DNA from: Nitrospinota bacterium
GTDB lineage: Bacteria > Nitrospinota_A > UBA7883 > JACRGQ01
NCBI GenBank assembly: GCA_029881495.1
Contig: JAOUMJ010000002.1
Span: 128,087-192,086, forward strand
Length of the DNA stretch: 64,000 nucleotides
Direction: 5' to 3'
The position numbers and the translations under genes were made by a program. The notes beneath the pieces were generated by a model, which was not told the origin of the DNA, searched no databases, and worked only from the letters and a program-made list of their open reading frames with translations. Within the stretch, counting starts at the first letter, position 1; each line of letters begins with the position of its first letter. This document shows, one piece after another, positions 35,061 through 64,000 of the stretch.

Positions 35061-35077
35061 CGGGGGAGTAGACGAAA

Positions 35078-35857: not shown

Positions 35858-35870
35858 TGGGTGAGGGAAG

Positions 35871-37418: not shown

Positions 37419-37454
37419 ATTAATTTTAAAAACGTGAAAGAGGAGGTTACTCGA

Positions 37455-38129: not shown

Positions 38130-38147
38130 AAAGGGGAAATAGAAGAG

Positions 38148-38531
38148 ATGAATAGAATGGATATTTCAAGGAAATTGGTTATTGGATTTCTTTTTGCTGC
38201 TTCCCTTTTCGCCATGTCGGCTATGAAGGCAGAGGCGGCGGAAAAAGCGGTTGACAACTACAACCTCCATTGCGTGCAGTGCCACGGTTCTGCCGGAACG
38301 GGGAAGGGGATCAACGCTCCGTTTCTCGCAGTTCAGCCGAGAAACCACACAAGTGATAAGGATATGAGTTCCTTGACTGACAGCAACGTATTCAAGGCTA
38401 TCAAGGAAGGCGGAATCGCAGTCGGTAAATCGACCCAGATGCCACCGTTCGGAGGCGTTTTGACCGATGCTGAGATCAATGATCTTGTAAAGCATCTGCG
38501 CGCCATGTGCAAATGCAAAGGACCAGCTTAA
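38148..38531 (+). CDS. Small periplasmic monoheme cytochrome c
   Basis: A 127-residue class I cytochrome c with signal peptide (to about residue 27, FAMSAMKAEA), heme site C42-VQCH46 in HCVQCHGSAGTGKGINAPFL, and axial Met in STQMPPFGGVLTDAEINDLVKHL. It is the last gene before a strong terminator, closing the oxidase operon that begins with the 40-residue peptide. It is probably the mobile carrier of the set. Confidence 0.87.
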   Translation: MNRMDISRKLVIGFLFAASLFAMSAMKAEAAEKAVDNYNLHCVQCHGSAGTGKGINAPFLAVQPRNHTSDKDMSSLTDSNVFKAIKEGGIAVGKSTQMPPFGGVLTDAEINDLVKHLRAMCKCKGPA

Positions 38532-42684: not shown

Positions 42685-42710
42685 TTTAGCCCAATCTAAG
42701 CTTCAGATAT

Positions 42711-42744
42711 GGCTCCCCCTCTTAAGAGGGGGGGCCTTTTTTTT
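42711..42744 (+). terminator. Strong rho-independent terminator
   Basis: GGCTCCCCCTCTT and AAGAGGGGGGGCC form an almost perfect stem at 42711-42736, followed by eight T. It stands 27 bases after the cytochrome c stop. Confidence 0.92.
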
Positions 42745-42899
42745 GCTCAAATCACGGTTTTCCCCTGTTTGGTCAGATTTTTGCTTATTTTTAACACCTA
42801 TCTTGCAATTGTGTATCAACTGTTAGACAATGGTGCACTCTCAATTAGGGTAGGGGTTCAAATACTTGGTAGATTTTAAAAAGGGTAGGATGTTGAGTA

Positions 42900-43847: not shown

Positions 43848-44623
43848 GAAACTTCTTTTTCATACTCATGAAGGAGATCAGATCGTATTTCAATTCTCCG
43901 ATAGCCTTTGTGGTGATCACCATTTTTTCGATACTCACAGGGTACTACTTCTACAACATTTTCGCGTCATTCAGCACATTGAGTTTTCAGGCGCAGACAG
44001 ATCCGATGGTGGCAAATCAGTATGGGGCGCTGAACGTAACGGAATTTGTTATCCGGCCGTTCATCGGCACATTGAGCGGGGTCATGCTGATCATGTTGCC
44101 GATGCTTACCATGCGTGTTTTCTCGGAGGAGAAAAAGGCGGGAACGATTGAGCTACTCCTCACATTCCCGGTGAAGGATATTGAGGCGATAATGGGGAAA
44201 TTCATGGGTTGCATGGGGATCTTCATGATAATGCTGGTTCTTTCATTCCCAAGCATTTTGCTGGTCGAGTTCTTTGGTGATCCGGAATGGGGTGTGATAA
44301 TCACCGGGTATATCGGTCTTATACTGATGGGTTCGGCTTTCATTTCCCTTGGCGTTTTCATGTCTACTCTCACGGAAAACCAGATAATCGCCGCTGTGCT
44401 TACATTCTCGGCGCTGATGATCTTCTACGTGGTCAGTTATTCGACCAGCCTGGTTGGCGAGAGCTTGAGCAGAATACTTGAGTACCTGTCGTTCAATTAC
44501 CACATTGCGAATTTCGCAAAAGGGGTAATCGATACTTCAGACGTCGTCTACTATATCCTGTTCACCTTTTTCTTCCTTTTCCTCAGCATGCGTTCGCTTG
44601 AATCGAAAAGGTGGAGGGCATAA
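43844..44623 (+). CDS. ABC-2 permease, GldF-like
   Basis: A 259-residue permease with six membrane helices, starting at GTG 43844 with a 4-base overlap with the ATPase gene. The opening FILMKEIRSYFNSPIAFVVIT and MLTMRVFSEEKKAGTIELLLTFPV, the latter the ABC-2 cytoplasmic loop signature, mark the GldF/CcmB-like ABC-2 family. It is followed 2 bases later by the GldG-like gene. It forms the membrane part of the transporter with the upstream ATPase. Confidence 0.87.
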   Translation: MRNFFFILMKEIRSYFNSPIAFVVITIFSILTGYYFYNIFASFSTLSFQAQTDPMVANQYGALNVTEFVIRPFIGTLSGVMLIMLPMLTMRVFSEEKKAGTIELLLTFPVKDIEAIMGKFMGCMGIFMIMLVLSFPSILLVEFFGDPEWGVIITGYIGLILMGSAFISLGVFMSTLTENQIIAAVLTFSALMIFYVVSYSTSLVGESLSRILEYLSFNYHIANFAKGVIDTSDVVYYILFTFFFLFLSMRSLESKRWRA

Positions 44624-44625
44624 TC

Positions 44626-46197
44626 ATGAAAATACCGGCAGTACTGATACTTGGTTTACTTGGAATCGTATTTATAGCCACCGGGTTTGGAATTTACGCG
44701 ATAGGCGGAGCCATGAGCATTACAGCAGCCGGCCTTATCTGGGTCGGACTGATGCTTACGCTCTTTATCCTCTATGTCCGTTTCAATGAAGTAAAGAACA
44801 TCCTTGGCAGCAAGAGCACTAAATACGGCGCGAACATGGTTGTGATGGTTGCGGTTTTCGCGGCGGTGACGGTTTTTGCCGCGGTGCTGGGCGAGACGCA
44901 CAAGAAGAGGGTTGATCTTACAAAAACCGGAAGGTTCACTCTTTCCACACAAACCAAAAAGATACTTCAATCGCTGAGCACCCCTGTGAAGGCGGTTGCG
45001 TTTTACCGAAATGAATCGGGTTCTCAGCATGCGCAACAGAGGTTGAAGATGCGCGACATACTTGAGGAGTACGCAAGCATTTCAGACAATTTCACATTCA
45101 CCTTTATCGACCCGGACAGAAACCCGGGGCTTGCATCAAAATACGGGGTGTCCGAATACCGGATAACGCTCCTTATGTCAGGCGATAAACAGATAAAGAT
45201 AGGAAATGAGCAGGAGGAGAAGCTGACAAACGGACTCATCAAGCTTTTGAGAGAAAAGCGGAAGGTAGTCTATTTTGTAAAGGGCCACGGCGAAAAGGAT
45301 ATAAGCTCTCCCGGTAAGGAGGGGTACCGTGCCGCCGCGGAAGCGATTATCAATGACAATTATGAAGTGAAGGATATCATGCTTCTCAGGCAGGATGAGG
45401 TTCCGGATGACGCCTCTGTGGTCGTTATCGCAAGTCCTGACAGGGATATGGCGGAGCCTGAACTTGAAAAGCTGACGAGATATTACCAAAGAGGTGGCGC
45501 GATTCTCGCCGAGGTTGATCCCGGGCATCCGCCAGGATACAGGACATGGCTAGAGAGCTTTGGTTTCAAGCTCCAGACCGATGTAATTATCGACCAGCAG
45601 AGCCAGCTGTATGGCGCGAACCACCTTACACCTGTTGTTTATGCCTATCACATCAAACATCCACTCACCAAGGACTTCAAGCTCGCTTCGTATTTCCCGA
45701 TAGCGAATTCGGTATATATAGAGGAAGACCCGAAGCTCGGAAGGTATCAATTGGCTCTTACAGGCCCGAACTCATGGACAGAGACGGACAAGAACCAGCT
45801 TGAATCGGGACAGGCGGAATATGACGAGGACAGGGAGAAGCGCGGTCCTATACCGGTGATGTCCGTAGCCACATTTGCCGCAAAGGGGGAAGTGGATGAG
45901 GAAGGCAACACTAGGGACAAGTACGGCAAAATTATAGCGATCGGCGATTCCGATTTCGCGAATAACACGAACATCAATCTTGCCGGAAATGGCGACCTCT
46001 TTTTGAATACCATTAGCTGGCTGGCGGAAGAAGCCGACCTGATAGCAGTCCGCGCAAAGAAATCCACCATGACGCCGGTTGTGCTGACGGCCGCGCAGGG
46101 GAGGGCGATTTTCTGGATACCGACGATTATGGTCCCTTCGATCGTATTGATGGCCGGATTGGGTATATATAGCCGCAGACGATGGTTCAGGCAATGA
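44626..46197 (+). CDS. GldG-like ABC auxiliary protein (DUF4350/ABC_transp_aux)
   Basis: A 523-residue protein. ATG 44626 is preferred over ATG 44611, since GGAGGG (44612-44617) lies 8 bases before it. Three N-terminal helices (about 5-95) precede a large periplasmic region with FTLSTQTKKILQSLSTPVKAVAFYRNESGS and the glutamine-amidotransferase-like KVVYFVKGHGEKDISSP. A C-terminal helix ends the protein (IPTIMVPSIVLMAGLGIY). This is the GldG auxiliary subunit that accompanies GldA and GldF. Its exact role is unknown. Confidence 0.85.
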   Translation: MKIPAVLILGLLGIVFIATGFGIYAIGGAMSITAAGLIWVGLMLTLFILYVRFNEVKNILGSKSTKYGANMVVMVAVFAAVTVFAAVLGETHKKRVDLTKTGRFTLSTQTKKILQSLSTPVKAVAFYRNESGSQHAQQRLKMRDILEEYASISDNFTFTFIDPDRNPGLASKYGVSEYRITLLMSGDKQIKIGNEQEEKLTNGLIKLLREKRKVVYFVKGHGEKDISSPGKEGYRAAAEAIINDNYEVKDIMLLRQDEVPDDASVVVIASPDRDMAEPELEKLTRYYQRGGAILAEVDPGHPPGYRTWLESFGFKLQTDVIIDQQSQLYGANHLTPVVYAYHIKHPLTKDFKLASYFPIANSVYIEEDPKLGRYQLALTGPNSWTETDKNQLESGQAEYDEDREKRGPIPVMSVATFAAKGEVDEEGNTRDKYGKIIAIGDSDFANNTNINLAGNGDLFLNTISWLAEEADLIAVRAKKSTMTPVVLTAAQGRAIFWIPTIMVPSIVLMAGLGIYSRRRWFRQ

Positions 46198-46226
46198 GCG
46201 TCGATAAAGATGGGCGGTGCGGCTAA

Positions 46227-47588
46227 ATGAGATATTTCAAGAATACGTTTATCTGGATAATTATCCTTGTCGGTATTGCGGGTTATAGCTTCATCGATAA
46301 GGAGCGGTTAAGGATGGAGGAAGTGGCAAAAGACGAGGCTACCAGGCTCTTGCCATTCGAACCGATTGAGGTTTTGGCCGCTGAAATTCGTAAGGAGGGA
46401 GAAGTTTCGTTAGAATTGGAGAGATGGGAAGACGGCTGGAAGATAGTAAAGCCTATAGAAGCCAAGGCTGATAACGAAGCTGTAGAAAAGTTCCTCGACA
46501 ACGTGCTCGAATCGAGGAACGACGCTGATTATGTGATGGACACGGATCCTTCTCCTGAAAGGCTGGCGGAATTCGGCTTGTCAAATCCGAAACTTTTTCT
46601 CACACTCAAGGTTGGCAAGGAATTAACTCCTCATACTGTGGTTTTTGGCGACAGGGCTCCATCGATGGGTGTCGCTTTTGCCCAGCTGGAAGGGGAAAAA
46701 CCTGTTTACAGGGTGCTTGCAAACACCAGGGCCGAAGCCGACAAGGACGAGCACTACTTCCGGGACAAGTCGGTGTTGCGCATAAATCCGATAATGGTTG
46801 ACCAGTTGGCAATCAATACGCCGAAAATGAATTTAAGAGTGAAACTTCCAGACGAAGGGAAATGGGTACTTGAGAAACCTTTAAAGGCTCGCGCCGACCA
46901 AAACAGCATTTTTGAGATCATGTCGGCATTTGCCAATACCGATGTGAAGGAATTTATCGAGGAAACAAAGGAAAACAAGGGGAAATACGGTCTGGATAAT
47001 CCTTCGACAGAATTGATGTTCTGGATAAGCGGTGATTCCAATCCGACTGTCAGGATACAGGTAGGCAAAAGAAGTCCGGAGAAACGCGGATATTTTGTTT
47101 CCATGTCCGACAGGGAAAACATTTTCCTTCTTGAAGAAGAAGTCATTAACGCGATTCCCAGGAATCCAAATGAATTGAGAAGCAAAGAGCTGTTTTTCAT
47201 CGAACAGGAAAACATAAAACGCATTGAGATCAAAAACGCAAAGAAGACTATCGTCCTCTTGAAGGATGTGGATAAAGAGTGGAAGAGAGATAAGCAGGGT
47301 GGCGAGATAGTAGATTTTAAAATGGTTAAGGAATTCCTGGATGACCTTGCTGAAGTAAAGATAGAGGATTTTCTGCAGGTAGATTCTAAAGGTCTGGCTG
47401 AATACGGATTGAACTCTCCCAGCATTCAGTTATTTCTCTGGGAAGAGGGTCGCACGGTTCCTTTCAGCCTCAGCGTTGGGAAAAAGACGCCGACAGGAAA
47501 CCAGGTTTATGCTTCATCCGGCTTGAGCAGCGAGGTATTGGTATTAAATGATTACATTCAACAAGTTCTTAAAACTTACTTTTTTTAA
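46227..47588 (+). CDS. DUF4340-family membrane-anchored protein
   Basis: A 453-residue protein with one N-terminal helix (about 8-20) and three internal repeats of the DUF4340 type, for example LSNPKLFLTLKVGKELTPHTVVFGDRAPSMG, LDNPSTELMFWISGDSNPTVRIQVGKRSPEKRGYF and LNSPSIQLFLWEEGRTVPFSLSVGKKTPTGNQVYA. It always travels with GldA/F/G-type transporter genes. It has no catalytic motif and is probably a periplasmic partner of the transporter. It lies 30 bases after the GldG-like gene. Confidence 0.83.
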   Translation: MRYFKNTFIWIIILVGIAGYSFIDKERLRMEEVAKDEATRLLPFEPIEVLAAEIRKEGEVSLELERWEDGWKIVKPIEAKADNEAVEKFLDNVLESRNDADYVMDTDPSPERLAEFGLSNPKLFLTLKVGKELTPHTVVFGDRAPSMGVAFAQLEGEKPVYRVLANTRAEADKDEHYFRDKSVLRINPIMVDQLAINTPKMNLRVKLPDEGKWVLEKPLKARADQNSIFEIMSAFANTDVKEFIEETKENKGKYGLDNPSTELMFWISGDSNPTVRIQVGKRSPEKRGYFVSMSDRENIFLLEEEVINAIPRNPNELRSKELFFIEQENIKRIEIKNAKKTIVLLKDVDKEWKRDKQGGEIVDFKMVKEFLDDLAEVKIEDFLQVDSKGLAEYGLNSPSIQLFLWEEGRTVPFSLSVGKKTPTGNQVYASSGLSSEVLVLNDYIQQVLKTYFF

Positions 47589-52398: not shown

Positions 52399-54354
52399 AT
52401 GTTTAATCGCATTTGGAAGAAATTCGCTTTCGTGCTTCTGGTGGTTTCGATACTTCCAATCGGGTATTTCGGCTACCAGAATCTCAAGGATGCCCGCTCG
52501 TCCGTAATCGAGGATACCCTTAAGACCATTTTCCTCAACTGCGTTACCAGGGGAAAGGATATTGAAAGGTCGTTCTTAAACGCATATTCGGATATCAACT
52601 ACCTGCGATCCAATCTGGTCATGCAGTTCTATACCGACAACGAAAAAAAAGGGGAGGGGGTAAAGGATTACTGGAAAGTCTTCCTGGAGCAGGAATTCAT
52701 GATATTCCTTTCATTAAAACCTGGTTATTCCCGCATCGGTTTTCTCGATGAATACGGGATGGAGGTTGTTGTCGTTTTTAGAAGCGGGAAAAACATGATT
52801 GCTTTAAGCGAAGACAAAAAGAGGAACAGGCTCACCTCGGCTTACTATGAACAGGCCGCAATACAGGATAAGTTCGGAATCGCGGCTATACCGATGAGAA
52901 GTTCGGTGGATCCCGGTCTTGACCTGAAATCCATTACACTCATACGTTACGCAACCAAGGTGTTCGACAGGGAGGGAAGGCCACAGGGGGTCATTTTCCT
53001 CGATCTCGACGGTAGCGAAATATCAAATTCCCTCAGCAACACGACATTCAAGAAAAGGCGGCCGGCGGCTATGATAACGAGCGCCGGAAATTTCATATAT
53101 AACCCTTTTGCCGAAGAAGAGGAAAATATATCCCGCGTACAGTACGACTACAACATAAACACAAAGTTTCCAAGCGACGTTGTTGCCCAGATACTCTCAG
53201 GAAGGCCGGGAATCATTGCGGATAATCCCGATTATCTCTTCGCTTTCAGCCCGGTCTTTCCAAAGGCCAATGACCACAAATATTTTTACGTCATCTTCGA
53301 CCGGTATGCGCATGACCGGTTCAATCCTATGCTCGATACGATAAAAAGGAAATATATTCTCGCTTCCATATTGGTCATGATTTTCTGCATAGGAGCCGCT
53401 CTCTTAGTCGCGCAGGCGCTTACGCGAAACATCGAAAAATTGCAGGAAGGGACGAAAAACCTCAAAGATAACCGGTTCAACTTCAGACTCGATATAAGAT
53501 CTGGCGATGAGATCGAGGCTCTGGCAAAAGCCTATAATCTGATGGCTGACGCTCTGCAGGATTACAGTGAGTCGCTGGAAAGCAAGGTGGAAGAGCGCTC
53601 CCGCCACATACAGAAAGTGGAAAGCAGGCTTATGCAGGCGGAGAAGCTGGCGGCTGTCGGGTTCCTTGCCGCCGGCGTGGCCCACGAGATAAACAATCCG
53701 ATATCAATAATCATCACAAGGCTAGAATTGATGATGAAAGCCTTCGATAAGGGGAAATTGGACGGTATACGGGATGATCTCAATGTCCTGCATAATCACG
53801 CTATAAGGATCGGGCGTATTACGAGCGACCTCCTGACATTCTCAAGAATGAAGTCAAACGTCTGCGAATCGGTTGACCTGAATGCCGTAATAACGCGCGT
53901 GGTAAATCTTGTGGAGATGCCGCTAAATAAAAAGAAAATTTCCCTGAAGCTGGAGCTCGAAGAAAAACTTCCTGAAGTATGGGCGAACACCCAGGGTATA
54001 GACCAGGTCGTATACAACATTGTTTATAACGCGTTCCAGGCAACGGATGTAGGCGGGAACATCTGGATATCTACCGCACGGCACGACGATGACAACATAG
54101 AAATAAAAATAAGGGACAACGGGAAGGGGATATCAAAGGATTCCATCGAGCGGGTTTTCGAGCCGTTTTACACGACAAAGGAGGTAGGGCAGGGCACCGG
54201 TCTGGGCCTATCCATCAGTTACGGACTGATCCAGGATTTTGGCGGTTCGATCAGCGTTGAGAGTGAAATTGGTGTTGGTACTCTTTTTACGATTATTCTT
54301 GCGGCGGCTTCTTCAAAAAGTGGAAAAACCAGGAAAGAGATGATAACCGGGTAG
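52399..54354 (+). CDS. Membrane histidine kinase (dCache-like sensor, HAMP)
   Basis: A 651-residue kinase. Helix 1 at about 8-28, a large periplasmic Cache-like sensor (about 30-315), helix 2 (about 318-338), HAMP (about 340-390), a coiled linker, HisKA with phospho-acceptor His429 in GVAHEINNPISI, and HATPase with VVYNIVYNAFQA (N box), IRDNGKGI (G1), FEPFYTTKEVGQGTGLGLSI (F/G2). All catalytic boxes are intact. Directly before an NtrC-like response-regulator gene (6-base gap), which is its probable partner. The LivK-type protein upstream may supply the signal. Confidence 0.9.
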   Translation: MFNRIWKKFAFVLLVVSILPIGYFGYQNLKDARSSVIEDTLKTIFLNCVTRGKDIERSFLNAYSDINYLRSNLVMQFYTDNEKKGEGVKDYWKVFLEQEFMIFLSLKPGYSRIGFLDEYGMEVVVVFRSGKNMIALSEDKKRNRLTSAYYEQAAIQDKFGIAAIPMRSSVDPGLDLKSITLIRYATKVFDREGRPQGVIFLDLDGSEISNSLSNTTFKKRRPAAMITSAGNFIYNPFAEEEENISRVQYDYNINTKFPSDVVAQILSGRPGIIADNPDYLFAFSPVFPKANDHKYFYVIFDRYAHDRFNPMLDTIKRKYILASILVMIFCIGAALLVAQALTRNIEKLQEGTKNLKDNRFNFRLDIRSGDEIEALAKAYNLMADALQDYSESLESKVEERSRHIQKVESRLMQAEKLAAVGFLAAGVAHEINNPISIIITRLELMMKAFDKGKLDGIRDDLNVLHNHAIRIGRITSDLLTFSRMKSNVCESVDLNAVITRVVNLVEMPLNKKKISLKLELEEKLPEVWANTQGIDQVVYNIVYNAFQATDVGGNIWISTARHDDDNIEIKIRDNGKGISKDSIERVFEPFYTTKEVGQGTGLGLSISYGLIQDFGGSISVESEIGVGTLFTIILAAASSKSGKTRKEMITG

Positions 54355-54360
54355 GGGCCA

Positions 54361-55782
54361 ATGGAAAACAACATAAAAAAACTGGTGCTGCTGATCGACG
54401 ATGAGGCCGATCTGCTGGAAAACTGCGCAAGAATCCTGGATGAGGAGAATTATTCATGCATCACGACAACGGACAGCACAAAGGCTCTTGAGCTTGCGAG
54501 GCTTCATAATCCGCAGGTTGTTATTACCGATTTCCTCATGCCCGAAAAAAACGGGATGGAGGTATTAAGGGATATTCATGCGGTGTTCCCGCAAATACCG
54601 ATAATAATGTTCTCCGCCTTTGCCACGATAGACGGCGTCGTGGAGGCTGTGAAGTCAGGAGCATTCGACTATCTAACGAAACCGTTTACATCAGATCAGC
54701 TGATAATCACGGTCGAGAGGGCTTTTGCGCAATATCGGCTGAAGGAAGAGAATAAGAACCTCAAGGAAAAACTTCAGGCTGATTTTTTTAATCATTTCTT
54801 TGTGGGAAAACATCCCAGATTCCTGAAAACCGTTGAGATGATAAGAAAAGTAGCCCAGTCGAAATCAAACGCGCTCATTTACGGGGAGACGGGGACCGGC
54901 AAAGAGCTTGCCGCACGGGCGATCCATATGCTTAGTGACAGGGCGAACGGTCCGTTTCATGTTGTCGATTGCACTACCGTGACAAAAGAAATGATCGAAC
55001 CCCCTACTTCAACAAGCGCCGGCAATAGCGACAACGCCGTAGAAAATATTTTCGACGCATCCGAAGGGGGGACGCTCTACCTGGAGCATGTGGACGAGCT
55101 AGACCCGACAAAACAGGCAAAACTTGTCCGGGTATTGCAGGACAGGAAGGTGCCATACGATATGGGCTGGAAAGCTATCAAAATGAATGTCCGGCTCATC
55201 GCTTCCACGACTACGGATCTTTACACAGCTGTTACAAACAATATGTTCCGCGAAAATCTTTACTATTTCCTAAATGTAGTTAAGATAGATATCCCGCCGC
55301 TCAGGGAGCGCCTGGAGGATATCGGGATTCTGTGCGACCATTTCTTCAAGGATCTGGCCGACGGGAACGGCATGGAAGTTCCTTCCCTGCATCCGGATGC
55401 ACTGGTGAAGATGATGGAGTACCGCTGGCCGGGCAACGTACGGCAGTTGAGGAACGTTCTGGAAGGGGCTGTCTCATTGGCGGAGGGGAGGGTAATTTTG
55501 GTGAAAAGTCTCCCGAAGGAGATAAGGTCCTCCGTAAGCCATAACGATCTCCCTCTTAAGGAAGCGAGGACAAAATGGCTGGAGCAGTTTGAGAGGTATT
55601 ACCTTGAGAACCTCCTCCTTGCGACAAGGGGGAACATGTCCAAGGCTTCGGAGAAAGCGGGTATAGCAAGGATGTCCCTTTACAGGATGGTTAAAAGAAC
55701 CGGTTTGCATGAGCTTGTTATGCATGAGCGATCGGCAGAAAAACAGAACACAAACGAAGAAAAAAACAGATCGGAGGAGTAG
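54361..55782 (+). CDS. NtrC-like response regulator with degenerate AAA+ domain
   Basis: A 473-residue protein with receiver (LLIDDEADLLEN; phospho-Asp in VVITDFLMPEKNG; Lys in YLTKPFTSDQL), AAA+ domain and Fis-type HTH (NMSKASEKAGIARMSLYRMVKRTGL). The P-loop IYGETGTGKELAAR is intact, but the segment between CTTVTKEMIEPPTSTS and GGTLYLEHVDEL lacks the FGHEKGAFTGA loop that contacts sigma-54. Walker B reads LYLEHVDE instead of LFLDEI. The second arginine-finger position reads LYYFLN instead of LYYRLN. It probably binds DNA without remodelling sigma-54 polymerase. The gene lies 6 bases after the kinase gene. Confidence 0.88.
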   Translation: MENNIKKLVLLIDDEADLLENCARILDEENYSCITTTDSTKALELARLHNPQVVITDFLMPEKNGMEVLRDIHAVFPQIPIIMFSAFATIDGVVEAVKSGAFDYLTKPFTSDQLIITVERAFAQYRLKEENKNLKEKLQADFFNHFFVGKHPRFLKTVEMIRKVAQSKSNALIYGETGTGKELAARAIHMLSDRANGPFHVVDCTTVTKEMIEPPTSTSAGNSDNAVENIFDASEGGTLYLEHVDELDPTKQAKLVRVLQDRKVPYDMGWKAIKMNVRLIASTTTDLYTAVTNNMFRENLYYFLNVVKIDIPPLRERLEDIGILCDHFFKDLADGNGMEVPSLHPDALVKMMEYRWPGNVRQLRNVLEGAVSLAEGRVILVKSLPKEIRSSVSHNDLPLKEARTKWLEQFERYYLENLLLATRGNMSKASEKAGIARMSLYRMVKRTGLHELVMHERSAEKQNTNEEKNRSEE

Positions 55783-55788
55783 GACAAA

Positions 55789-58593
55789 ATGGGTCGTGCA
55801 AAAGATGATGAGATATCCTTGCCCGGAAATATAAATTCAAGGACTGGAAACATACTGCTCGCATGCTTTTTCATGTCGGGTGCGGCGGGGCTTGTATATC
55901 AGGTTGCGTGGGTTCGCATACTTTCACTCGTCTTTGGCAATACCATATACGCGGTATCCATCGTAGTTGCGGGATTCATGACCGGGCTTGCTCTTGGAAG
56001 CCATGTCTGGGGGAAGTGGATCGACAAGATCAAGGTTCCTCTGAATACATACATTAAACTGGAGATCGGGATTGCGCTAGCATCTTTGGCAATTACACTC
56101 CTTATATTTCTGCTTGACGATGTCATCGTGAGCCTTATGTCGGTTGACTCCATTTCGTCAGGCGGATGGCTGATAGTAAGATATATCCTCGTTTTCATCC
56201 TTCTTCTTGCTCCTACTTTCCTGATGGGCGGTACCACACCGGTGATGAGCAAGTTTTATGTGAATGATTTTGAAAAGGTAGGGGAGGGGATAGGATCCAT
56301 TTACGCGGCGAATACATACGGCGCAATGTTTGGCTGTTTCTTCACAGGGTTTCTGCTTGTCCCGTTCATAGGAGTAAATGCAACGATCGCGTTTGCGGCG
56401 TTCCTTAACATGCTCGTGGCATGGATACTTACTCTTCTCGGCAAAAATTTTGCGATGGACAGCGGCGAAAAGAGCCTCGCGATAAACAGCGCTGAAAAGA
56501 AGAGCAGGAAAAAGGAGAAGAAAGCGGTTCAGGAGTCTGCCGGCGTATCTGTCGAAAGATACCGGGGATCCGTAAATACCGCGCTTGCGCTCATCCTCAT
56601 CTCAGGTTTCAGCATGTTGGCATTTGAGGTATTGTGGACCCGCGGTTTTATTGTCTCCTTCAAATCAACTGTCTATCTCTTCAGCAATCTCCTTACAGTA
56701 TTCCTTCTCGGCATGGCGTTCGGGAGCCATCTTTCAAGCAGATGGATCGACAGGCTGGAAGACCCATTAAAGATTTTCGGACTTGTTCAGGTGGGCATAG
56801 GACTCTTCGGGATACTTAGCGTTGTATTCTTCTCCTATTCGGAAAGCCTTGCGTCCAGTCTGGGGATGATGCTTGGGCAGATAACCTGGGTGAAAGATAT
56901 AATAGTGATGTTTATTCTGATGCTCTTTACATTCTTCCTCCCCGCAACCCTGATGGGAATCTCCTACCCGGTCATCTGTCGTGTTGCCACGGATTCGCTC
57001 AGTTCAATAGGAAAAGACGTCGGCCTCGTTTATGCGGTTGGTACCGCAGGCGGAATTGCCGGCTCGCTTTTCGCAGGTTTCCTTCTGATACCCTCCTTCG
57101 GTTTGCAGTATGGAATCTTTATTGTCTCTGCGATCTCTCTCATAAACGGCTATGCCGGCCTTTTTAACTCCAATTCGCGAAAAACTCTTGGGCCGGTTCT
57201 TCCAATAACGGCGGTACTGGCTATTATGACCGTAATAGGCTTCAAAATATCAGGTACCGATATCGGCATCGGGACGAGGTCGGATGGCAGGCTGATTTTC
57301 AGCAAGGAAGACGTTATGGGGACGGTCAAGGTCGAGGAGAAGTGGGAAAATGGGCCTTTGACCCTTATGGTAAACAACTACCAGCTGGCGACAAGCGGCG
57401 ATATCGCCGTTCGTTTCGGGCATATCCCGCTCCTGCTAAAACCGGATTCAAAAGATGTCCTTGTGATATCACTTGGCTCCGGAATAACGTCAGGTTCGGT
57501 CGGTGATCATCCGGTCGAAAGCATTGAGTCGGTAGAAATAGTGCCGGCGCTACTTGATATCCAGCCTCTGTTCAAGGAGTACAACCATAATATAATCGCA
57601 GACAAGCGTTTTCACCTTACTTTCTGGGATGGAAGGCATTATATAAAGGTTACCAGGAAGAGTTACGACCTCGTCATCTCGGACCTGTTCCAGCCTGACA
57701 GCGCCGGTGTTGGGAACCTGTACAGTCTGGAGCATTTCCGGAATGTGAAGAAAAAGCTGAAGAGCGGTGGAGCAATGGCCCAGTGGCTCCCACTCTATCA
57801 GATCTCGCCCGAAAGCCTGAAAGTGGTTATGCGCACCTTCGCCTCCGTTTTCGAGCATGTCGTCGTATGGTCGGGCGATGTAAACAGCGAGTTTCCGACG
57901 CTGATGCTTCTTGGCTCTTCCGAACCGATCTTGATAAATCCGGCAATGCTTCATGAGCGGATGGATACAGAGTCCGTAACGATGGACATGATCGAGTACG
58001 CTGATCCGCTCTCTTTTCTCAGCTTTTATGTCATGGATCGTGATGGTGTGATGAAGTTCACGGAAGGATCGCCGATAAACAGCGATAACAGGCCGGTAAT
58101 AGAGTACACGGAACCGCGCAAAATATGGAACCGGAAGGAAAACGCGGTGTTCAACTTCGCTTCGCTTGTTTCGGCGCGACAACTCTCCACTAAACTTCTC
58201 CCTGGCGCGGATGAAGACGCCGAATTGTACACAGCGATAAAGAAATATTTTGATGCCCGCACAAAACTTCTGGAAGGGAAGGTGGAACATGCAAAAAGAA
58301 ACTACAATCTGGAAGTCGAGAAGTATAAAGAGGCGGCAGCGCTCGCTCCAATTGATCCCTATCTTGCGCTTTCGGTGTTTGATCTCGGATATCTCTACTA
58401 CAACAGGGGAGATCTCAAAACCGCAATTAAACTTTTTGAATGGACAAAGGTGATAAATTCGGATTTACCAGAAGTTCATTTCTATTTGGCGAAAACATAC
58501 CAGAAATTGGGGATGCCGGAAAAATCGGAGAATTCATTCAAGGAACTGGCGCGATTGCGTCCTCAATTGGCCGAAAAACTGGTGGTCAAATAA
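55789..58593 (+). CDS. Fused membrane transporter/spermidine-synthase-like protein with C-terminal TPR
   Basis: A 934-residue protein. Two sets of membrane helices (about 20-225 and 265-500) each carry MFS-like LGS(H)xWG/SRW-I-DR loops: GLALGSHVWGKWIDKI and MAFGSHLSSRWIDRLED. Residues about 515-780 form a spermidine-synthase-like Rossmann domain (VLVISLGSGITSGSVGDHPVESIESVEIVPALLDI; SYDLVISDLFQP; NLYSLEHFRNVKKKL). C-terminal TPR repeats follow (about 830-930). The GxGxG is GSGITSGSV, close to the family form. Such fused proteins are widespread and their substrate is unproven. It lies 6 bases after the NtrC-like gene. Confidence 0.83.
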   Translation: MGRAKDDEISLPGNINSRTGNILLACFFMSGAAGLVYQVAWVRILSLVFGNTIYAVSIVVAGFMTGLALGSHVWGKWIDKIKVPLNTYIKLEIGIALASLAITLLIFLLDDVIVSLMSVDSISSGGWLIVRYILVFILLLAPTFLMGGTTPVMSKFYVNDFEKVGEGIGSIYAANTYGAMFGCFFTGFLLVPFIGVNATIAFAAFLNMLVAWILTLLGKNFAMDSGEKSLAINSAEKKSRKKEKKAVQESAGVSVERYRGSVNTALALILISGFSMLAFEVLWTRGFIVSFKSTVYLFSNLLTVFLLGMAFGSHLSSRWIDRLEDPLKIFGLVQVGIGLFGILSVVFFSYSESLASSLGMMLGQITWVKDIIVMFILMLFTFFLPATLMGISYPVICRVATDSLSSIGKDVGLVYAVGTAGGIAGSLFAGFLLIPSFGLQYGIFIVSAISLINGYAGLFNSNSRKTLGPVLPITAVLAIMTVIGFKISGTDIGIGTRSDGRLIFSKEDVMGTVKVEEKWENGPLTLMVNNYQLATSGDIAVRFGHIPLLLKPDSKDVLVISLGSGITSGSVGDHPVESIESVEIVPALLDIQPLFKEYNHNIIADKRFHLTFWDGRHYIKVTRKSYDLVISDLFQPDSAGVGNLYSLEHFRNVKKKLKSGGAMAQWLPLYQISPESLKVVMRTFASVFEHVVVWSGDVNSEFPTLMLLGSSEPILINPAMLHERMDTESVTMDMIEYADPLSFLSFYVMDRDGVMKFTEGSPINSDNRPVIEYTEPRKIWNRKENAVFNFASLVSARQLSTKLLPGADEDAELYTAIKKYFDARTKLLEGKVEHAKRNYNLEVEKYKEAAALAPIDPYLALSVFDLGYLYYNRGDLKTAIKLFEWTKVINSDLPEVHFYLAKTYQKLGMPEKSENSFKELARLRPQLAEKLVVK

Positions 58594-58847: not shown

Positions 58848-58893
58848 TGGTATATTATTCCCACTTCACCTCATCTTCTTGAGGTAGGAAGTG
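58848..58893 (+). promoter_or_regulatory. Extended -10 promoter with 5'-end mRNA hairpin
   Basis: TGG-TATATT at 58848-58856 is an extended -10. The expected start lies near 58863. Right there a hairpin begins: CACTTCACCTCA (58862-58873), a 6-base loop, TGAGGT, a 2-base bulge and GAAGTG (to 58893). A stem at the very 5' end can protect mRNA from decay, as known for ompA of Escherichia coli. No good -35 was found. Confidence 0.5.
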
Positions 58894-58952
58894 TCTTTAA
58901 GGGAACACAGTACTAGTAGTGAAAAAAGTTAACTTAAAAAGGGGGTGAGATG

Positions 58953-59381
58953 GTGAAAAAATTAAGTATTCTTGGTGCAATGGTTTTTGCAGTTACTTTA
59001 GCTGTAACAGCTTTTGCCGCAAAACCAGCTATAGCTAGGGTTCTTGGTGGTGGTTCAGCCATAACAGATACTCTGCAGATAGGTGAGATTACAAGCATCG
59101 GAAACAAGCAGTTGACGATAGCTACCCAGTTCGAAGAGAAATCAAAAACCTATACTTTGGACCTGTTACCGAATTGTTATGTTATGACCGCTTCACGAGG
59201 CGAGTTCAAGAAATTCTCTGAGCTCAAAAAGGGTGACCTTGTTGCTGCGTACGGATGGTACAAAGGTGGCAAGTGGAACGCTGTAAGGATAGACATTCTT
59301 GATAAGAATGACTACCTCGTAAAGAGATTGGCTGCTGATGCGAAAGCAAAAGTGTATTACAAACATGAGAACGTAAAATAA
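58953..59381 (+). CDS. Small exported protein preceding the NosZ-like gene
   Basis: A 142-residue protein. GTG 58953 (MKKLSILGAMVFAVTLAVTA) is favoured over ATG 58950, as GGGGGTG at 58941-58947 is too near the ATG. The mature part is small and beta-rich: LQIGEITSIGNKQLTIATQFEEKSKTYTLDLLPNCYVM then FKKFSELKKGDLVAAYGWYKGGKWNAVRIDIL, an OB-like pattern as in DUF5666-type proteins. It has one Cys, no heme site, and no lipobox. It lies 22 bases before the NosZ-like gene and shares its biased codon use, so it is probably made in quantity with it and may serve as its partner or metal carrier. Confidence 0.6.
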   Translation: MKKLSILGAMVFAVTLAVTAFAAKPAIARVLGGGSAITDTLQIGEITSIGNKQLTIATQFEEKSKTYTLDLLPNCYVMTASRGEFKKFSELKKGDLVAAYGWYKGGKWNAVRIDILDKNDYLVKRLAADAKAKVYYKHENVK

Positions 59382-59403
59382 AAATTTGAGGGGGTGAGTG
59401 ACT

Positions 59404-61203
59404 TTGAAAAAATATGTTGCCTATTTTATGGCGATAGCTGTTGCGTCCGTGTTTTCATGGAGCACAACGGCAGAAGCTAAAAAAGTAGTGCTGACCGAGT
59501 TTGATAAACGCGATTGGCACGTAACAGAAGGCCAGGATAACGACTCCCCGTTACGCGACTACGCAATTCTTTATGATGCGGGTGGTGTTGACGGTGCTCT
59601 GGGCGTTATCGGTATACCTTCAATGAGGACCTACAGGCACATCAGGTGTGGTGTTGACTTGCACAACTTCCCATTTTCGGGATCAAACGCAGGTAACAAC
59701 AACGGTACTCCGGACGGTAAATATCTCTATGTTTCCGATAAGGGTTCCGACACAATTGCCGAGGTAAACCTGCAGACAGGTTGGGTTGAGAGAATTTTCG
59801 CTCTGCCGAAACCTTTTGGTATCCATCACAGTGCGGCTCTTGCACCGAACGGTAAATACCTCTTCGCAACTGGAGAGCTTACCGGTAAAATGCTCAAGCT
59901 TCGCCTTGAAGATGGCGCTACCACAGTTCTTGATATTCCGCCTGCACCTAGCGCACCGGACTATCCTGACACCAGCAAAGATGGTAAATACGTTTTCTCC
60001 GGAAACTATTATCACTCGGCTATTATGGTGTTCAGCCAGGATCCCTTTAAGCTTATTAAAGAGATTCCAGTTGGTAAGAACCCACACGGTACGAACGTAA
60101 GCCCGACAAACAGGATCGTAGCAGTCTGCGATAAACTCTCAGCTACCATTTCGGTTATCGACGTGGAACAGCTCAGGGTCGCAAAAGTTATTCCTGTTGG
60201 TGCGGGTCCGCTTCACAACCAGTTCGACACGCTTGGAAAGTACGACTACATTTCCTGCTTCGTGTCTGACTCTACTTCGAAACTCGATATGCAGAGAATG
60301 CAGTTGGTTGACGAGTTCCCGATTCACTACCGCGTTGGTCACAACTCAATAGCTCCTGACAACGGGTACTATGTTTCGCAGAACAAGTTCTCCACCGGTC
60401 TCTTTACTCCGACCGGTATCGTTTTCGCAGTTAACTTCGAGCTTCAGGATATCGACGAGTCTTCCGACACATACGGTAAGTCCGTTAAGATCATCCCTGT
60501 TGACGGCGAGCCGCATGAAGGAAGGATGATTTTCGCATCCTACATTCAGAGGTGGAACACCGGTAAGGGCGAAGAGCTCTTCTCGAAAGGTTATAACCTT
60601 GGTGACTACCATGTAAGCTTTGATGTTGGACCTGGTGTCAACAGCAAAACAAGGCCTCAGCTTGAGCCTGCTCACTGGAAAAACACCAAGAAATACTGGA
60701 TCGCAAGGGATAACGGTAAACCTGGTATAACAAAAGAAGGCGATGTTCATGTTATTCGCATAAAAGCCTTCTCATACGGTTATGTTCCAAGGTTTATCCA
60801 CGTTCCTCAGGGCGCGAAAGTCCGCATAATCTTCACAAACATCGACAAAGCGGCCGGTCTTACAAAGAACCCGGACGTTACGATGGGTATGGCAATATAC
60901 GGTCACTACGGCTTCAGGACCATGATCATTGGTCCTCGCGGTATGTCGGCTGTTGCCGAGTTTGAAGCAGATAGAGCGGGCGAGTACGAGTTCTACTGCC
61001 AGCACTTCTGTGGTCCGTTGCACCTTGAGATGCGCGGTACCTTCTTCGTTGATCCGAAAGGAAAACAGGCTTCTCTTGCAGTTGGTGACTACGACCGCGT
61101 AGCACAGCAGGAACAGCTGGTAGACGAGGGAGAGCGCGAGTGGCTTGTTGGTACAAACAGGCTCCTTAACAAGCTCAAAGAGGGTAACGAACCCACCATA
61201 TAG
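59404..61203 (+). CDS. Divergent nitrous-oxide-reductase-like copper protein (beta-propeller plus CuA cupredoxin)
   Basis: A 599-residue protein with a Sec signal (to about residue 24, TTAEAKK; no twin Arg). TTG 59404 fits the GAGGGGGTG ribosome site better than GTG 59398. Residues about 60-440 form a YVTN/lactonase-like propeller (DGKYLYVSDKGSDTIAEVNLQTG). Histidines match NosZ CuZ positions: H87 in DLHNF, H141 in GIHHSA, H228 in NPHGTNVSP, H271 in GPLHNQFD, H313 in VGHNS, H371 in GEPHEG. The C-terminal cupredoxin has CuA ligands H501, C532, C536, H540, M543 (C-x3-C-x3-H-x2-M). The usual His-His pair is His-Asn at 87-88, though H142 could supply a seventh ligand. It is about 40 residues shorter than common NosZ. 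Probably reduces N2O, but another substrate is possible. Confidence 0.75.
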   Translation: MKKYVAYFMAIAVASVFSWSTTAEAKKVVLTEFDKRDWHVTEGQDNDSPLRDYAILYDAGGVDGALGVIGIPSMRTYRHIRCGVDLHNFPFSGSNAGNNNGTPDGKYLYVSDKGSDTIAEVNLQTGWVERIFALPKPFGIHHSAALAPNGKYLFATGELTGKMLKLRLEDGATTVLDIPPAPSAPDYPDTSKDGKYVFSGNYYHSAIMVFSQDPFKLIKEIPVGKNPHGTNVSPTNRIVAVCDKLSATISVIDVEQLRVAKVIPVGAGPLHNQFDTLGKYDYISCFVSDSTSKLDMQRMQLVDEFPIHYRVGHNSIAPDNGYYVSQNKFSTGLFTPTGIVFAVNFELQDIDESSDTYGKSVKIIPVDGEPHEGRMIFASYIQRWNTGKGEELFSKGYNLGDYHVSFDVGPGVNSKTRPQLEPAHWKNTKKYWIARDNGKPGITKEGDVHVIRIKAFSYGYVPRFIHVPQGAKVRIIFTNIDKAAGLTKNPDVTMGMAIYGHYGFRTMIIGPRGMSAVAEFEADRAGEYEFYCQHFCGPLHLEMRGTFFVDPKGKQASLAVGDYDRVAQQEQLVDEGEREWLVGTNRLLNKLKEGNEPTI

Positions 61204-61244
61204 GCTGATGTCTCAATATTATTGAGATGTATTGGACTTATAAC

Positions 61245-61278
61245 GAGACCGGGTGTAACAGCCCGGTCTCTTTTTTTT
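61245..61278 (+). terminator. Strong terminator directly after the NosZ-like gene
   Basis: GAGACCGGG (61245-61253) and CCCGGTCTC (61262-61270) form a perfect 9-base stem with an 8-base loop, followed by eight T. A smaller hairpin TCTCAAT-ATT-ATTGAGA lies just before it (61211-61227). The next gene starts only 12 bases later, so downstream genes depend on read-through or a hidden promoter. Confidence 0.92.
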
Positions 61279-61289
61279 ATTGAGGAATA

Positions 61290-61793
61290 ATGAAATCTTC
61301 GGTACGGATAATTTGCGCGATCCTGATGGTCGCGGTGTATATAGGATGCTCCGGCAAAAAAGCCAGTTCCATGCCTGCAACTCCGCCAGATCAGGTTGTA
61401 CTGCATTTTTATGACCTGTTAAAGGATGGTGGCAAGATCGCGAACAGGGAGGCCTTCAATATGGTCAGCACCAAGTACCGAGGGCTTGATCCGAATGATT
61501 TCAGGAAGTGGACCGATACCTACAACAGGGATTCAAAAATCTCTATTATGGAGACCGTTGTCCCGGTTGCTCCGGATTCAAAAGGGGATATGGTCGCAAA
61601 GGTTATTATGGAAGTACAGACGCCATCAACTTTTGGCGATTACTTTTCCACTACGAGTAATGTCAATCTCATACTTGACAAGGATTCAAACGAATGGAAG
61701 ATAGACTTCATGGCGGATACCATCGATGAATCCGAATATCTGAATGCGCCCGCAGAGGCGAATTCCCCGGATGGGGAGAACCAGGAACAATAA
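61290..61793 (+). CDS. NTF2/DUF4878-like lipoprotein of the b/c module
   Basis: A 167-residue lipoprotein with lipobox VYIGCSGKK. The mature part PPDQVVLHFYDLLKDGGKIANREAFNMVSTKY and NVNLILDKDSNEWKIDFMAD has the long first helix and final beta strands of NTF2-like/DUF4878 lipoproteins. It stands in the same position relative to cytochrome b as the NTF2-like gene at 38.7 kb does to its fused relative. Its stop is 1 base before the cytochrome b ATG. Function is unknown; likely helps build or link the complex. Confidence 0.65.
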   Translation: MKSSVRIICAILMVAVYIGCSGKKASSMPATPPDQVVLHFYDLLKDGGKIANREAFNMVSTKYRGLDPNDFRKWTDTYNRDSKISIMETVVPVAPDSKGDMVAKVIMEVQTPSTFGDYFSTTSNVNLILDKDSNEWKIDFMADTIDESEYLNAPAEANSPDGENQEQ

Positions 61794-61794
61794 A

Positions 61795-62430
61795 ATGATG
61801 AATAAAGTTATTGATTGGCTGGATGTAAGACTTGGAGTAAAGGGATTCTATAAAGAACATATCGAATACTCTTTGCCTGAGAGCGCCAGCTTTTGGCACC
61901 TGTTCGGCGGACTAACGATCGGCTGTATTATAATTCAGGTTATTACCGGTTTTTACATGACAATGTACTACGTTCCGGTTCCAGAACTGGCTCATGAGAG
62001 CATAAAAACCATGTGCAATACCACAACATTTGGCGCGCTGTTTCGTAACGTGCATCGATACAGTTCTACTGCGGGGATATTCTTTCTGTTTATCCATGCG
62101 ATACACGTTATGTCACGTCGCGCTTACCGCGCTCCACGCGAGCTTACATGGTGGGTTGGGATCATTCTTGCCGGCCTCTTTATTCTTCTCCTTATTTCCG
62201 GGATCATCGTTCCCTGGGATTGGAGAAGCTACTGGGAACTTATCATCTGGGCAGACTGGATCGACAGCATTCCGCTTATTGGCGACAGCCTTAAGGGATT
62301 GGTCCTCTCAAGCTTTACACTTGGCAGAAACTACGCCGTCCATATCATTTTATTGCCGGTGGTGCTGTTTTTCTTTCTGCTGATCCACATAGTGCTTGTC
62401 CGCAAACTGGGGTTGTCAGATCGCGCGTAA
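61795..62430 (+). CDS. Cytochrome b (split form, N-terminal part of bc-type complex)
   Basis: A 211-residue cytochrome b6-type protein. ATG 61795 (or 61798) follows CAGGAAC; an upstream in-frame ATG (61744) lies in the lipoprotein gene. An amphipathic start WLDVRLGVKGFYKEHIEYSLPESASFWHLFGGL leads to four helices. Heme ligands are in NVHRYSSTAGIFFLFIHAIHV and NYAVHIILLPVVLFFFLLIH. GWxxSGIIxPWDW-like LLLISGIIVPWDWRSYWEL is typical. It pairs with the next gene, which supplies subunit IV and heme c. It probably oxidises quinol for the copper enzyme upstream. Confidence 0.9.
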   Translation: MMNKVIDWLDVRLGVKGFYKEHIEYSLPESASFWHLFGGLTIGCIIIQVITGFYMTMYYVPVPELAHESIKTMCNTTTFGALFRNVHRYSSTAGIFFLFIHAIHVMSRRAYRAPRELTWWVGIILAGLFILLLISGIIVPWDWRSYWELIIWADWIDSIPLIGDSLKGLVLSSFTLGRNYAVHIILLPVVLFFFLLIHIVLVRKLGLSDRA

Positions 62431-62470
62431 ACGCGCTTGTTAATCTGAAAAAAATGGAGATTGTAAGATA

Positions 62471-63193
62471 ATGTTTTGGGGAAGAAAAGATGCAAAATGG
62501 TGGCCGCACTATCTGCTGACGCTGTCAGGAGTGATGGTTGTGGTGCTCATCATAGTCAGCTTGCTTGCGACTTTATATCCGGTGCCGGATGATGCTCCTA
62601 TGGTCATACCTATGCCGGATGACGGGGAAAATGTTCCAGGGCCTGAATGGGTTTTCCTCCTTTTCTGGATGCCGTTCTGGTATTTCAAGGGGAGGATGAA
62701 AAAGTACCTCGTGTTCATGACAGTAATACCGATTCTAGCTCTTATTTTCTTTATTCTACTTCCATATCTGGACAAGCTTCCGCTTGCGAAATATTTAGGG
62801 AAAATTCCGAAGTTGAACAGTTTTATGGAAAGTGCCAAACAGCTTCCAAAAGGGATAAAGAGAAGCTTTATTTACGGGATCCCGGCGTTGGCGTTTGCCC
62901 TCGTCCTTGGATTCAGTTTTGTTGCTACGGGACATCAGGCGAAGATACTTGGTTGTGATTCGTGCCACAATCCCGCCATGGGACACAGAATGGCGATACC
63001 GCCAATTGATGTTTTCAACTACTATATGGTCGATAGAGCGAGGCAGATCGGCGTCGGCAAATACAGGGCCGGCAAGGAAAGTCTCGAAGGGAATTCAGGA
63101 AGATTTTTTCAGGATACTGGAGACACCGAGGGTGGGTACAAGGACGCAAACTGGCAAATGAGGCATATGTATGAACCAACCTTCACCTGGTAG
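62471..63193 (+). CDS. Subunit IV-like/monoheme cytochrome c protein of the b/c complex
   Basis: A 240-residue protein with three membrane helices (about 14-36, 80-97, 138-155). The first periplasmic loop has PGPEWVFLLFWMPFWYF, a PEWY-type quinol-site motif with V for Y. After the last helix comes C162-DSCH166 in GCDSCHNPAMGHRMAIPP, a short heme c site with likely His or Met ligand near by. The C-terminus MRHMYEPTFTW repeats that of the fused protein at 39.4 kb. Together with the upstream cytochrome b it forms a Rieske-less b/c module. Confidence 0.85.
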   Translation: MFWGRKDAKWWPHYLLTLSGVMVVVLIIVSLLATLYPVPDDAPMVIPMPDDGENVPGPEWVFLLFWMPFWYFKGRMKKYLVFMTVIPILALIFFILLPYLDKLPLAKYLGKIPKLNSFMESAKQLPKGIKRSFIYGIPALAFALVLGFSFVATGHQAKILGCDSCHNPAMGHRMAIPPIDVFNYYMVDRARQIGVGKYRAGKESLEGNSGRFFQDTGDTEGGYKDANWQMRHMYEPTFTW

Positions 63194-64000
63194 CAGGGTG
63201 GGACGAATCGCAAAAACTGTTATTGCTCAGGCTCTTCTGGTTTTGTTATTGGTCTCCGTGCCAACGGCACACAGCGCGAATAATGACAATGAGAGGTTGA
63301 GCGGAGTTGTTGCGCCCAAAATCACTATTGTTGAACCGTCAAAATCGTCTACGGCGCCTGATGTTTTCGAGTACCGTATTCCCACAAAATACAGCATGCC
63401 GACAGGTCTTGCCGTTGATTCCAAAGACAGGGTATGGTTTACCGAAATGGCAGGAAATTCCGTAGGGGTGCTAACTCCCGGAACAAATGAGATCAAGGAG
63501 TACAGGATACCTTCCACGAAGGATCTCCCTTCTTCGGAGTGGGAATACAATCAGGAGGTGAAAGATTCTCCAATTGAATCTCTTAATGTATACAGTGTCG
63601 GAAGCCCCGGCAATCTGATTGTCGGCAAGAACGATATAATCTGGTTTGTTACTCATCTCGGCAACAGCATTGTTCGTTTCGAGCCGGACAAGGAGGAGTT
63701 TACCGAGTTTATTCTCCCTACTGAAGACGCTAGACCGTATGACCTTGCCGAAGATTCAAAGGGGAATATCTGGTTCGTTGAGAAGAATGGGGGAAAACTC
63801 GCCCGCCTTGATTTTGAAAAGAAAAAGATCGTCGAGATTAGGCTTGAGCAAGGGGTCAATCTCATGGGGATGGTAATAGACAAGGACGACAACGTATGGA
63901 TTGGCGACGTTTCCGGGAACTATCTGGCGCGATATAATCCAACAGAAAAAAAGCTGAGGAGATTCCCGATCGGCATTCCTCAGGCACAGCCCGGAAATAT
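63171..64000 (+). CDS. Vgb/NHL-like periplasmic beta-propeller (runs off right edge)
   Basis: The frame is open from ATG 63171 to the edge (276 codons). ATG 63171 overlaps the cytochrome gene by 23 bases, with AGG 7 bases upstream; GTG 63198 is the alternative. A signal peptide (VIAQALLVLLLVSVPTAHSA) is followed by propeller repeats PTGLAVDSKDRVWFTEMAGNS, PYDLAEDSKGNIWFVEKNGGK and MGMVIDKDDNVWIGDVSGNY. They resemble virginiamycin B lyase, but the export signal and place after a cytochrome b/c module make antibiotic inactivation unlikely. It may be a docking or accessory protein of the N2O/b-c system. Confidence 0.72.
   Translation, partial: MNQPSPGSRVGRIAKTVIAQALLVLLLVSVPTAHSANNDNERLSGVVAPKITIVEPSKSSTAPDVFEYRIPTKYSMPTGLAVDSKDRVWFTEMAGNSVGVLTPGTNEIKEYRIPSTKDLPSSEWEYNQEVKDSPIESLNVYSVGSPGNLIVGKNDIIWFVTHLGNSIVRFEPDKEEFTEFILPTEDARPYDLAEDSKGNIWFVEKNGGKLARLDFEKKKIVEIRLEQGVNLMGMVIDKDDNVWIGDVSGNYLARYNPTEKKLRRFPIGIPQAQPGN

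Follow-up and report, generated by a model that had tools for sequence, protein, structure and literature searches.

Gene content and gene order

The window, as we call the whole stretch of DNA analysed here, comprises 64,000 nucleotides (contig C2, positions 128087-192086) of a Nitrospinota genome that is 2.82 Mb in size and 97% complete. Its right end harbors a block of genes encoding a NosZ-like protein, a small OB-fold protein, a lipoprotein, a cytochrome b/heme c module and a Vgb-like propeller. ORF and domain calls confirmed the open reading frames predicted at 58950-64000, in the same order as in a preliminary description of this DNA. For this locus we computed the family relationship of the NosZ-like protein, motif conservation, gene order, co-occurrence of genes, the absence of canonical genes and the presence of a separate Rieske-bc complex. 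The features are listed below, where L-nosZ and L-NosZ denote the gene and protein of the lactonase-type (clade III) nitrous oxide (N2O) reductase.

41569-42684, plus strand: monoheme cytochrome c of 371 aa; its relatives adjoin L-nosZ in most non-Nitrospinota loci; candidate electron carrier
42900-47588, plus strand: GldA/GldF/GldG-like ABC-2 transporter and DUF4340 protein; neighbors of L-nosZ in other phyla; candidate stand-in for NosFY
52399-54354, plus strand: sensor histidine kinase, upstream of the block and conserved in relatives
54361-55782, plus strand: NtrC-type sigma-54 response regulator, upstream of the block and conserved in relatives
55789-58593, plus strand: fused MFS-like / spermidine-synthase-like / TPR protein, upstream of the block and conserved in relatives
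58848-58863, plus strand: sigma-54-type promoter-like site, TGGTATATTATTCCCA, found by comparison with relatives
58950-59381, plus strand: small exported OB-fold protein; NCBIfam NF052405, 'NOV5WD8W family nitrogen cycling protein', 218.6 bits (cut-off 170)
59398-61203, plus strand: NosZ-like protein of 601 aa with a Sec-type signal, a seven-bladed lactonase-type propeller and a CuA-type cupredoxin
61290-61793, plus strand: NTF2-fold lipoprotein with lipobox ...YIGC, kept with L-NosZ across phyla
61795-62430, plus strand: split cytochrome b (b6-like) with four invariant heme-ligand histidines
62471-63193, plus strand: subunit-IV-like protein with a PEW motif and a fused C-terminal CxxCH heme c domain (IV/c protein), invariant C-terminal tail NWQMRHMYEPTFTW
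63171-64000 in the window, ending at 64511 beyond it, plus strand: first Vgb-like propeller, 446 aa, with a Vgb_lyase domain

The longest open reading frame of the cytochrome b starts at 61744; the ATG at 61795 is the likelier start. Calls of Cytochrome_B and Vgb_lyase domains agree with what the preliminary description had named these proteins. To the right of the window the contig completes the first Vgb propeller and encodes three more proteins before it ends: a second Vgb propeller, an MFS/spermidine-synthase fusion of 978 aa and a TPR protein. None of the nosDFYL genes occurs in this stretch up to the contig end, in line with the preliminary description. In Nitrospinota, two fused MFS-like / spermidine-synthase-like / TPR proteins (55789-58593 of the window; L002:13630-16566) bracket the operon.

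We found the NosZ-like gene in 16 of the 24 Nitrospinota genomes searched, and the OB family NF052405 in exactly the same 16. The order OB protein, NosZ-like protein, lipoprotein, cytochrome b is found in all 15 Nitrospinota relatives examined, and is followed by the IV/c gene and both propellers wherever the contig extends far enough. In a second comparison, covering 45 named loci with relatives of the NosZ-like gene, mostly from Nitrospinota MAGs, the order NosZ, lipoprotein, cytochrome b was seen in 17 Nitrospinota loci. The assignment of the window to Nitrospinota is based on these relatives. The core block of NosZ, lipoprotein, cytochrome b, IV/c and propellers was found in 14 non-Nitrospinota loci, belonging to Nitrospirota, 'Deltaproteobacteria' MAGs, Gammaproteobacteria and one Rhodospirillales MAG (Alphaproteobacteria). 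Outside Nitrospinota the core block generally lacks the OB gene and is located beside genes that score above the L-NosZ cut-off given below. In several of the 'Deltaproteobacteria' and Nitrospirota loci, cytochrome b and IV/c are separated, either by a cytochrome c or by a NosD-like beta-helix with a fused cytochrome c. Four further loci keep the lipoprotein, with the propellers present or absent and cytochrome b undetected. Five beta- and gammaproteobacterial L-NosZ loci have no lipoprotein, cytochrome b module or propellers, and the module is thus not obligatory. The conservation of gene order among relatives exceeds chance by far. The operon is real and conserved, as the preliminary description had expected of this gene set.

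Loci L035, L040, L042 and L043 are titled 'Nitrospirae bacterium'. They encode NosZ-like proteins 79-84% identical to that of the window, in a Nitrospinota-type block, and the titles are probably outdated or wrong labels.

The NosZ-like protein

The NosZ-like protein matches NCBIfam NF052460, 'clade III lactonase-type nitrous-oxide reductase', over its full length (residues 55-552 to positions 2-479 of the 480 in the profile) with an E value of 4e-183. The score of 609.3 bits does not reach the curated equivalog cut-off of 700 bits. The models for clade II and clade I NosZ gave only 178 and 131 bits. The protein is composed of a lactonase/YNCE propeller, which also matches nos_propeller, and a cupredoxin domain, with PF10282 and PF13473 above cut-off, and it matches canonical N2O reductase structures along both propeller and cupredoxin. 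Of ten non-Nitrospinota homologues scored, eight clear the NF052460 cut-off (724-803 bits), while L058 (682 bits) and L050 (659 bits) fall below it.

In a maximum-likelihood tree with midpoint root, the seven Nitrospinota rows form one fully supported group on a stem of 0.83 changes per site. L050, from Nitrospirota, is nearest to this group (support 99/97), and the rest lie beyond. Within the closest fifteen Nitrospinota genomes, identity to the protein of the window is 78-84%. Judged by the NF052460 scores and the tree, the NosZ-like protein is a deep-branching, divergent relative of L-NosZ and is formally below the equivalog cut-off. The kind of enzyme is known, and is found here in a divergent form.

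Copper sites

We aligned 31 homologues to compare the copper sites. Histidines 81, 89, 143, 144, 206, 230, 273, 310, 315 and 373 are invariant. Five of these, H143, H230, H273, H315 and H373, align with canonical His178, His326, His382, His433 and His494, respectively, and K295, also kept and invariant, is the equivalent of Lys397. Canonical numbering is that of Pseudomonas stutzeri, and we take the numbered residues to have the ligand roles commonly assigned to them. The pair H89-N90 was matched to His129-His130 by motif (CHHPHIS against LHNFPFS) and not by the HMM path. With H89 included, six of the seven CuZ histidine positions correspond to those of canonical NosZ. The seventh, His130, is N90 in the protein of the window and Glu in most other groups (Glu or Asn in 31/31). 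Hence the second ligand of the HH pair is not conserved, and the full canonical set of seven CuZ histidines is absent from the protein. H144, H206, H81 or H310, which are likewise invariant, could replace His130 in a CuZ-type cluster.

The CuA residues C534, C538, H542 and M545 are invariant in the 31 homologues. The canonical ligand set of His583, Cys618, Cys622, His626 and Met629 is nevertheless incomplete, with Met (M496) at the position of His583 in all 31. His583 gates electron transfer to CuA. The structures 1FWX and 2IWF carry THG at this first CuA histidine. In the PDB chains with the best scores, the position is occupied by Phe, Trp or Tyr, and these chains for this reason appear to be engineered His583 variants.

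In brief, the protein shares its overall architecture, the six CuZ histidine positions, Lys397 and most CuA ligands with canonical NosZ of clades I and II, whose genes occur with nosDFYL and nosR or nosB/G/H. It differs from them in the Asn or Glu at His130, the Met at His583 and the lack of NosD, NosL and NosR genes. With L-NosZ it has in common the lactonase-type propeller and CuA cupredoxin, all invariant histidines and the gene neighbors of the loci above cut-off. It differs from L-NosZ in its score (609 bits against the cut-off of 700), its separate, long-stemmed branch and the extra OB partner, as well as in changes next to most of the CuZ histidines (N90 for Glu, E374 for Asn and an insertion after H144). 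These changes and the long stem are compatible with a changed function.

We suggest that the locus is probably a respiratory N2O reductase operon of the lactonase type (clade III), in a deep branch carried by Nitrospinota. One alternative is that the Nitrospinota branch has been recruited elsewhere, as an L-NosZ-derived CuA-propeller oxidoreductase that acts on another substrate, or only carries electrons, and is fed by the b/c module. The score below the L-NosZ cut-off would fit this, as would the long stem, found together with about 80% identity inside the phylum, the systematic changes beside the CuZ histidines and the private OB partner. However, every propeller histidine that is invariant in L-NosZ proper has been kept, along with the Lys397 equivalent and the CuA cysteines, and loci that score above the cut-off have the same partner module. 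L050 is moreover intermediate in score (659 bits) and has an OB-family gene. We regard recruitment as unlikely.

Electron transfer module

The split cytochrome b and the IV/c protein were compared in 31-32 sequences. Histidines H104, H118, H200 and H215 of cytochrome b are invariant or nearly so, as are the PEW motif, the CxxCH motif and the C-terminal tail YKDANWQMRHMYEPTFTW of the IV/c protein. The diheme cytochrome b ligands and the PEW motif are shared with cytochrome b6/bc complexes and the ExtP b-type cytochrome. The nos module differs from both in having a covalent C-terminal heme c followed by a conserved tail, and in having no Rieske gene in the operon.

The Rieske gene of the genome is located on contig C44 (G000:C44; L109:2530-5330) together with its own cytochrome b6, a subunit IV (PEWYF, no heme c) and a pentaheme protein. 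A complete separate complex thus exists. The preliminary description had proposed that the locus has a Rieske-less b/c module of its own, and this view holds: the module is conserved across phyla and the Rieske protein belongs to a separate, complete bc complex.

If the operon's cytochrome b and IV/c protein shared the Rieske protein of that complex, transfer to CuA would be of the ordinary bc type. The genome does encode Rieske proteins and the module retains the PEW motif of the Qo site, but the Rieske gene is part of a complete Rieske-cytb6-IV set, a covalent heme c with an invariant tail belongs to the L-nos module itself, and the window encodes a second fused b/c protein with no adjacent Rieske gene. 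Sharing of this kind seems improbable to us. There is likewise little to be said for the b/c module, propellers and lipoprotein being an independent quinol:cytochrome c oxidoreductase that is merely beside nosZ, since in five taxonomic groups they form a single run with nosZ, always in the same order, even if paralogous fused b/c proteins occur away from nosZ (39420-40568 of the window; 1662-2837 of L058) and some L-NosZ loci have no module.

The second Rieske-less fused cytochrome b/heme c protein of the window (39420-40568, 382 aa) has a similar tail, NRWMMRHWYEPQVVW, and is followed by a putative lipoprotein of 207 aa (40546-41169). Pairs of a fused b/c protein and a putative lipoprotein resembling those at 39420-41169 are found near L-nosZ in L058, L063 and L075. 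We do not claim homology between the nos-operon lipoprotein and the 207-aa protein, for which hhalign gave a probability of 56%.

Accessory genes

Gene absence was tested by profile family searches of genomes, alongside control genomes that responded. No match to PF05573, PF05048 or TIGR04247 was found in the genome of the window (G000), indicating that NosL and NosD are missing from it, and PF04205 for FMN-binding, NosR-type proteins gave no match in eight genomes including G000. Nor were NosD, NosL or NosR-type genes found beside the locus in close relatives, as far as each was searched. The preliminary description was right in stating that nosD, nosL and nosR are missing. NosL is likewise missing from 35 of 39 L-NosZ host genomes, and short, sub-threshold NosD-like proteins are present in other L-NosZ hosts.

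NosD-like beta-helix proteins with a cytochrome c domain are encoded inside 'Deltaproteobacteria' L-nos operons (L052:9975-11309, L058:12582-14051, L074:4708-6051). The cytochrome c domain was called on the protein of L052 and assigned by similarity in L058 and L074.

The 371-aa cytochrome c has 55% identity to the cytochrome located beside L-nosZ in L050. In L-nosZ loci of Delta-, Gamma- and Alphaproteobacteria, this cytochrome is likewise followed by an ABC-2 transporter and a DUF4340 protein; in the window a GldA/GldF/GldG-like ABC-2 set is found at 42900-46197. This cytochrome c/ABC-2 cluster is located approximately 17 kb upstream of the NosZ-like gene in the window, and the distance is also about 17 kb in G015, G017, G019 and G022. 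The cytochrome c is kept in G009 and G021, Nitrospinota genomes where the NosZ-like gene was not found, and it is therefore not exclusive to that gene. On account of these gene neighborhoods, the GldAFG-type ABC-2 transporter is a candidate stand-in for NosFY. The earlier statement that the locus is without nosF and nosY is only literally true, since this exporter, linked to L-nosZ in other phyla, is encoded 17 kb upstream. The accompaniment of the NosZ-like gene also extends beyond the genes that the preliminary description had counted, with the cytochrome c and ABC-2 transporter at 41569-47588 as L-nosZ neighbors in other phyla. CcmH/thioredoxin-type maturation genes flank L-nosZ in L058, L059, L061 and L063, and do not adjoin the NosZ-like gene in the window.

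OB protein and lipoprotein

An AlphaFold model of the small OB protein (pLDDT 84.8) has CusF OB folds as its top PDB matches, with a TM score of 0.72 by target, and the name 'OB-like' given to it earlier was thus appropriate. CusF is a periplasmic Cu(I)/Ag(I) chaperone with a metal site of His, Met and Trp. The model shares the OB fold of CusF, whereas the 18 OB homologues in our alignment have no His, Met, Cys or Trp that is invariant or close to it, and the OB profile finds no CusF sequence. A role as copper chaperone was considered for the CusF-like fold and rejected for the lack of conserved metal-binding residues and of a CusF sequence match. PADLOC gave no match for the OB protein. What is conserved is a C-terminal helix, YLxKRLxxDAK, which looks more like an interaction surface. 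Among the loci compared, the OB gene is restricted to Nitrospinota and a single Nitrospirota locus (L050, an OB-family gene). Because of the lack of conserved His, Met and Cys and the near-confinement to Nitrospinota, we find a structural or interaction role likelier than the copper role that had been proposed for this protein, and do not retain it as a copper partner.

The best matches of the lipoprotein model (pLDDT 86.3) are weak and include NTF2-like folds, and half of the lipoprotein homologues match the NTF2-like MecA_N model of Pfam, weakly. Both observations support its designation as NTF2-like in the preliminary description.

Regulation

In the window, and in relatives with long enough contigs, the genes of the histidine kinase and the NtrC-type regulator come before the block. 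Most relatives carry TGGTATAT-N3-TTGCA, or a near variant, roughly 70-130 b upstream of the OB gene. The sigma-54-type site of the window has the -24 half and is degenerate in the -12 half; a site score of at least 9 is reached by 5% of shuffled sequences. We infer that the operon is probably controlled by the adjacent histidine kinase and sigma-54 response regulator.

Proposed function

Under our preferred reading, that of a lactonase-type N2O reductase operon, the NosZ-like protein would be exported by Sec and reduce N2O to N2. Its propeller would hold a CuZ-type site and its cupredoxin domain one of the CuA type. Electrons from quinol would enter the split cytochrome b, with its two b hemes, and the subunit-IV/heme c protein, with no Rieske partner involved. 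They would then be transferred to heme c and, probably with the 371-aa cytochrome c, further to CuA. A role in assembly or docking is predicted for the NTF2 lipoprotein and both Vgb-like propellers, and in Nitrospinota also for the OB protein. NosD, NosL and NosR would be dispensable, and maturation of the copper sites might conceivably use the linked GldAFG-like ABC-2 exporter.

More tentatively, we speculate that the clade III N2O reductases form a separate class of copper enzymes. Such a class would be defined by a native Met at the place of the CuA ligand His583, rearranged CuZ ligands, maturation free of NosD and NosL, and direct reduction by quinol via a Rieske-less cytochrome b/heme c module docked through the NTF2 lipoprotein and two Vgb propellers, and the Nitrospinota enzyme would be its most diverged version, with its own OB subunit. 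We see this broader proposal as possible, though doubtful.

We know of no biological sink for N2O other than N2O reductase. If the function is as we suggest, groundwater and marine sediment harbor an N2O sink that has been overlooked, because clade I and II profiles score the NosZ-like protein far below their cut-offs. The Met that occurs naturally in place of His583 would, together with the lack of NosD, NosL and NosR, serve as a test of what is essential in the canonical N2O reductase model.

Earlier reports of the protein group

The preliminary description had taken the locus for an N2O reductase locus of a new kind. The gene is a deep-branching relative of L-NosZ, a family reported by He et al. 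(Nature 2025;646:152-160), as cited in PMC13122619, and expressed Nitrospinota copies are already noted in PMC9562985. After normalisation, no other nosZ in that aquifer study was transcriptionally as active per genome as that of Nitrospinota MAGs nzgw266-267. PMC11033732 describes lactonase proteins of Nitrospirota that are NosZ-like, together with a Nitrospinota member, and called for experiments. The Nitrospirota proteins of PMC11033732 and the Nitrospinota transcripts of PMC9562985 represent the same protein group as that of the window. The passages on these proteins report a NosZ-like or novel Sec-dependent clade, and contain no discussion of the b/c module, the propellers, the OB protein or the copper-site differences. 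Among our loci, nzgw271 corresponds to L072, nzgw266/267 to L045/L049 and DRJW01 to L040.

A comparison of Nitrospinota genomes from 2024 (PMC10839748) reported norBC and nosZ to be absent from all genomes analysed. For clade III this absence is amended by the L-NosZ-like gene, present in a fixed operon in 16 of 24 Nitrospinota genomes. The locus matters for this reason, as a survey had reported no nosZ in a phylum where two thirds of the genomes searched carry it.

Other respiratory genes

In a check for a NO reductase, five COX1-family proteins over cut-off were found in the genome. Two are aa3-like, one is a cbb3 CcoN and two have no label; none is named NorB by NCBIfam. The region 32336-38531 of the window encodes a weakly CydA-like membrane protein (628 aa), an EB_dh/DMSO-reductase-type heme protein and several cytochromes c, and a counterpart of this cluster is located upstream of L-nosZ in L056 and L070.
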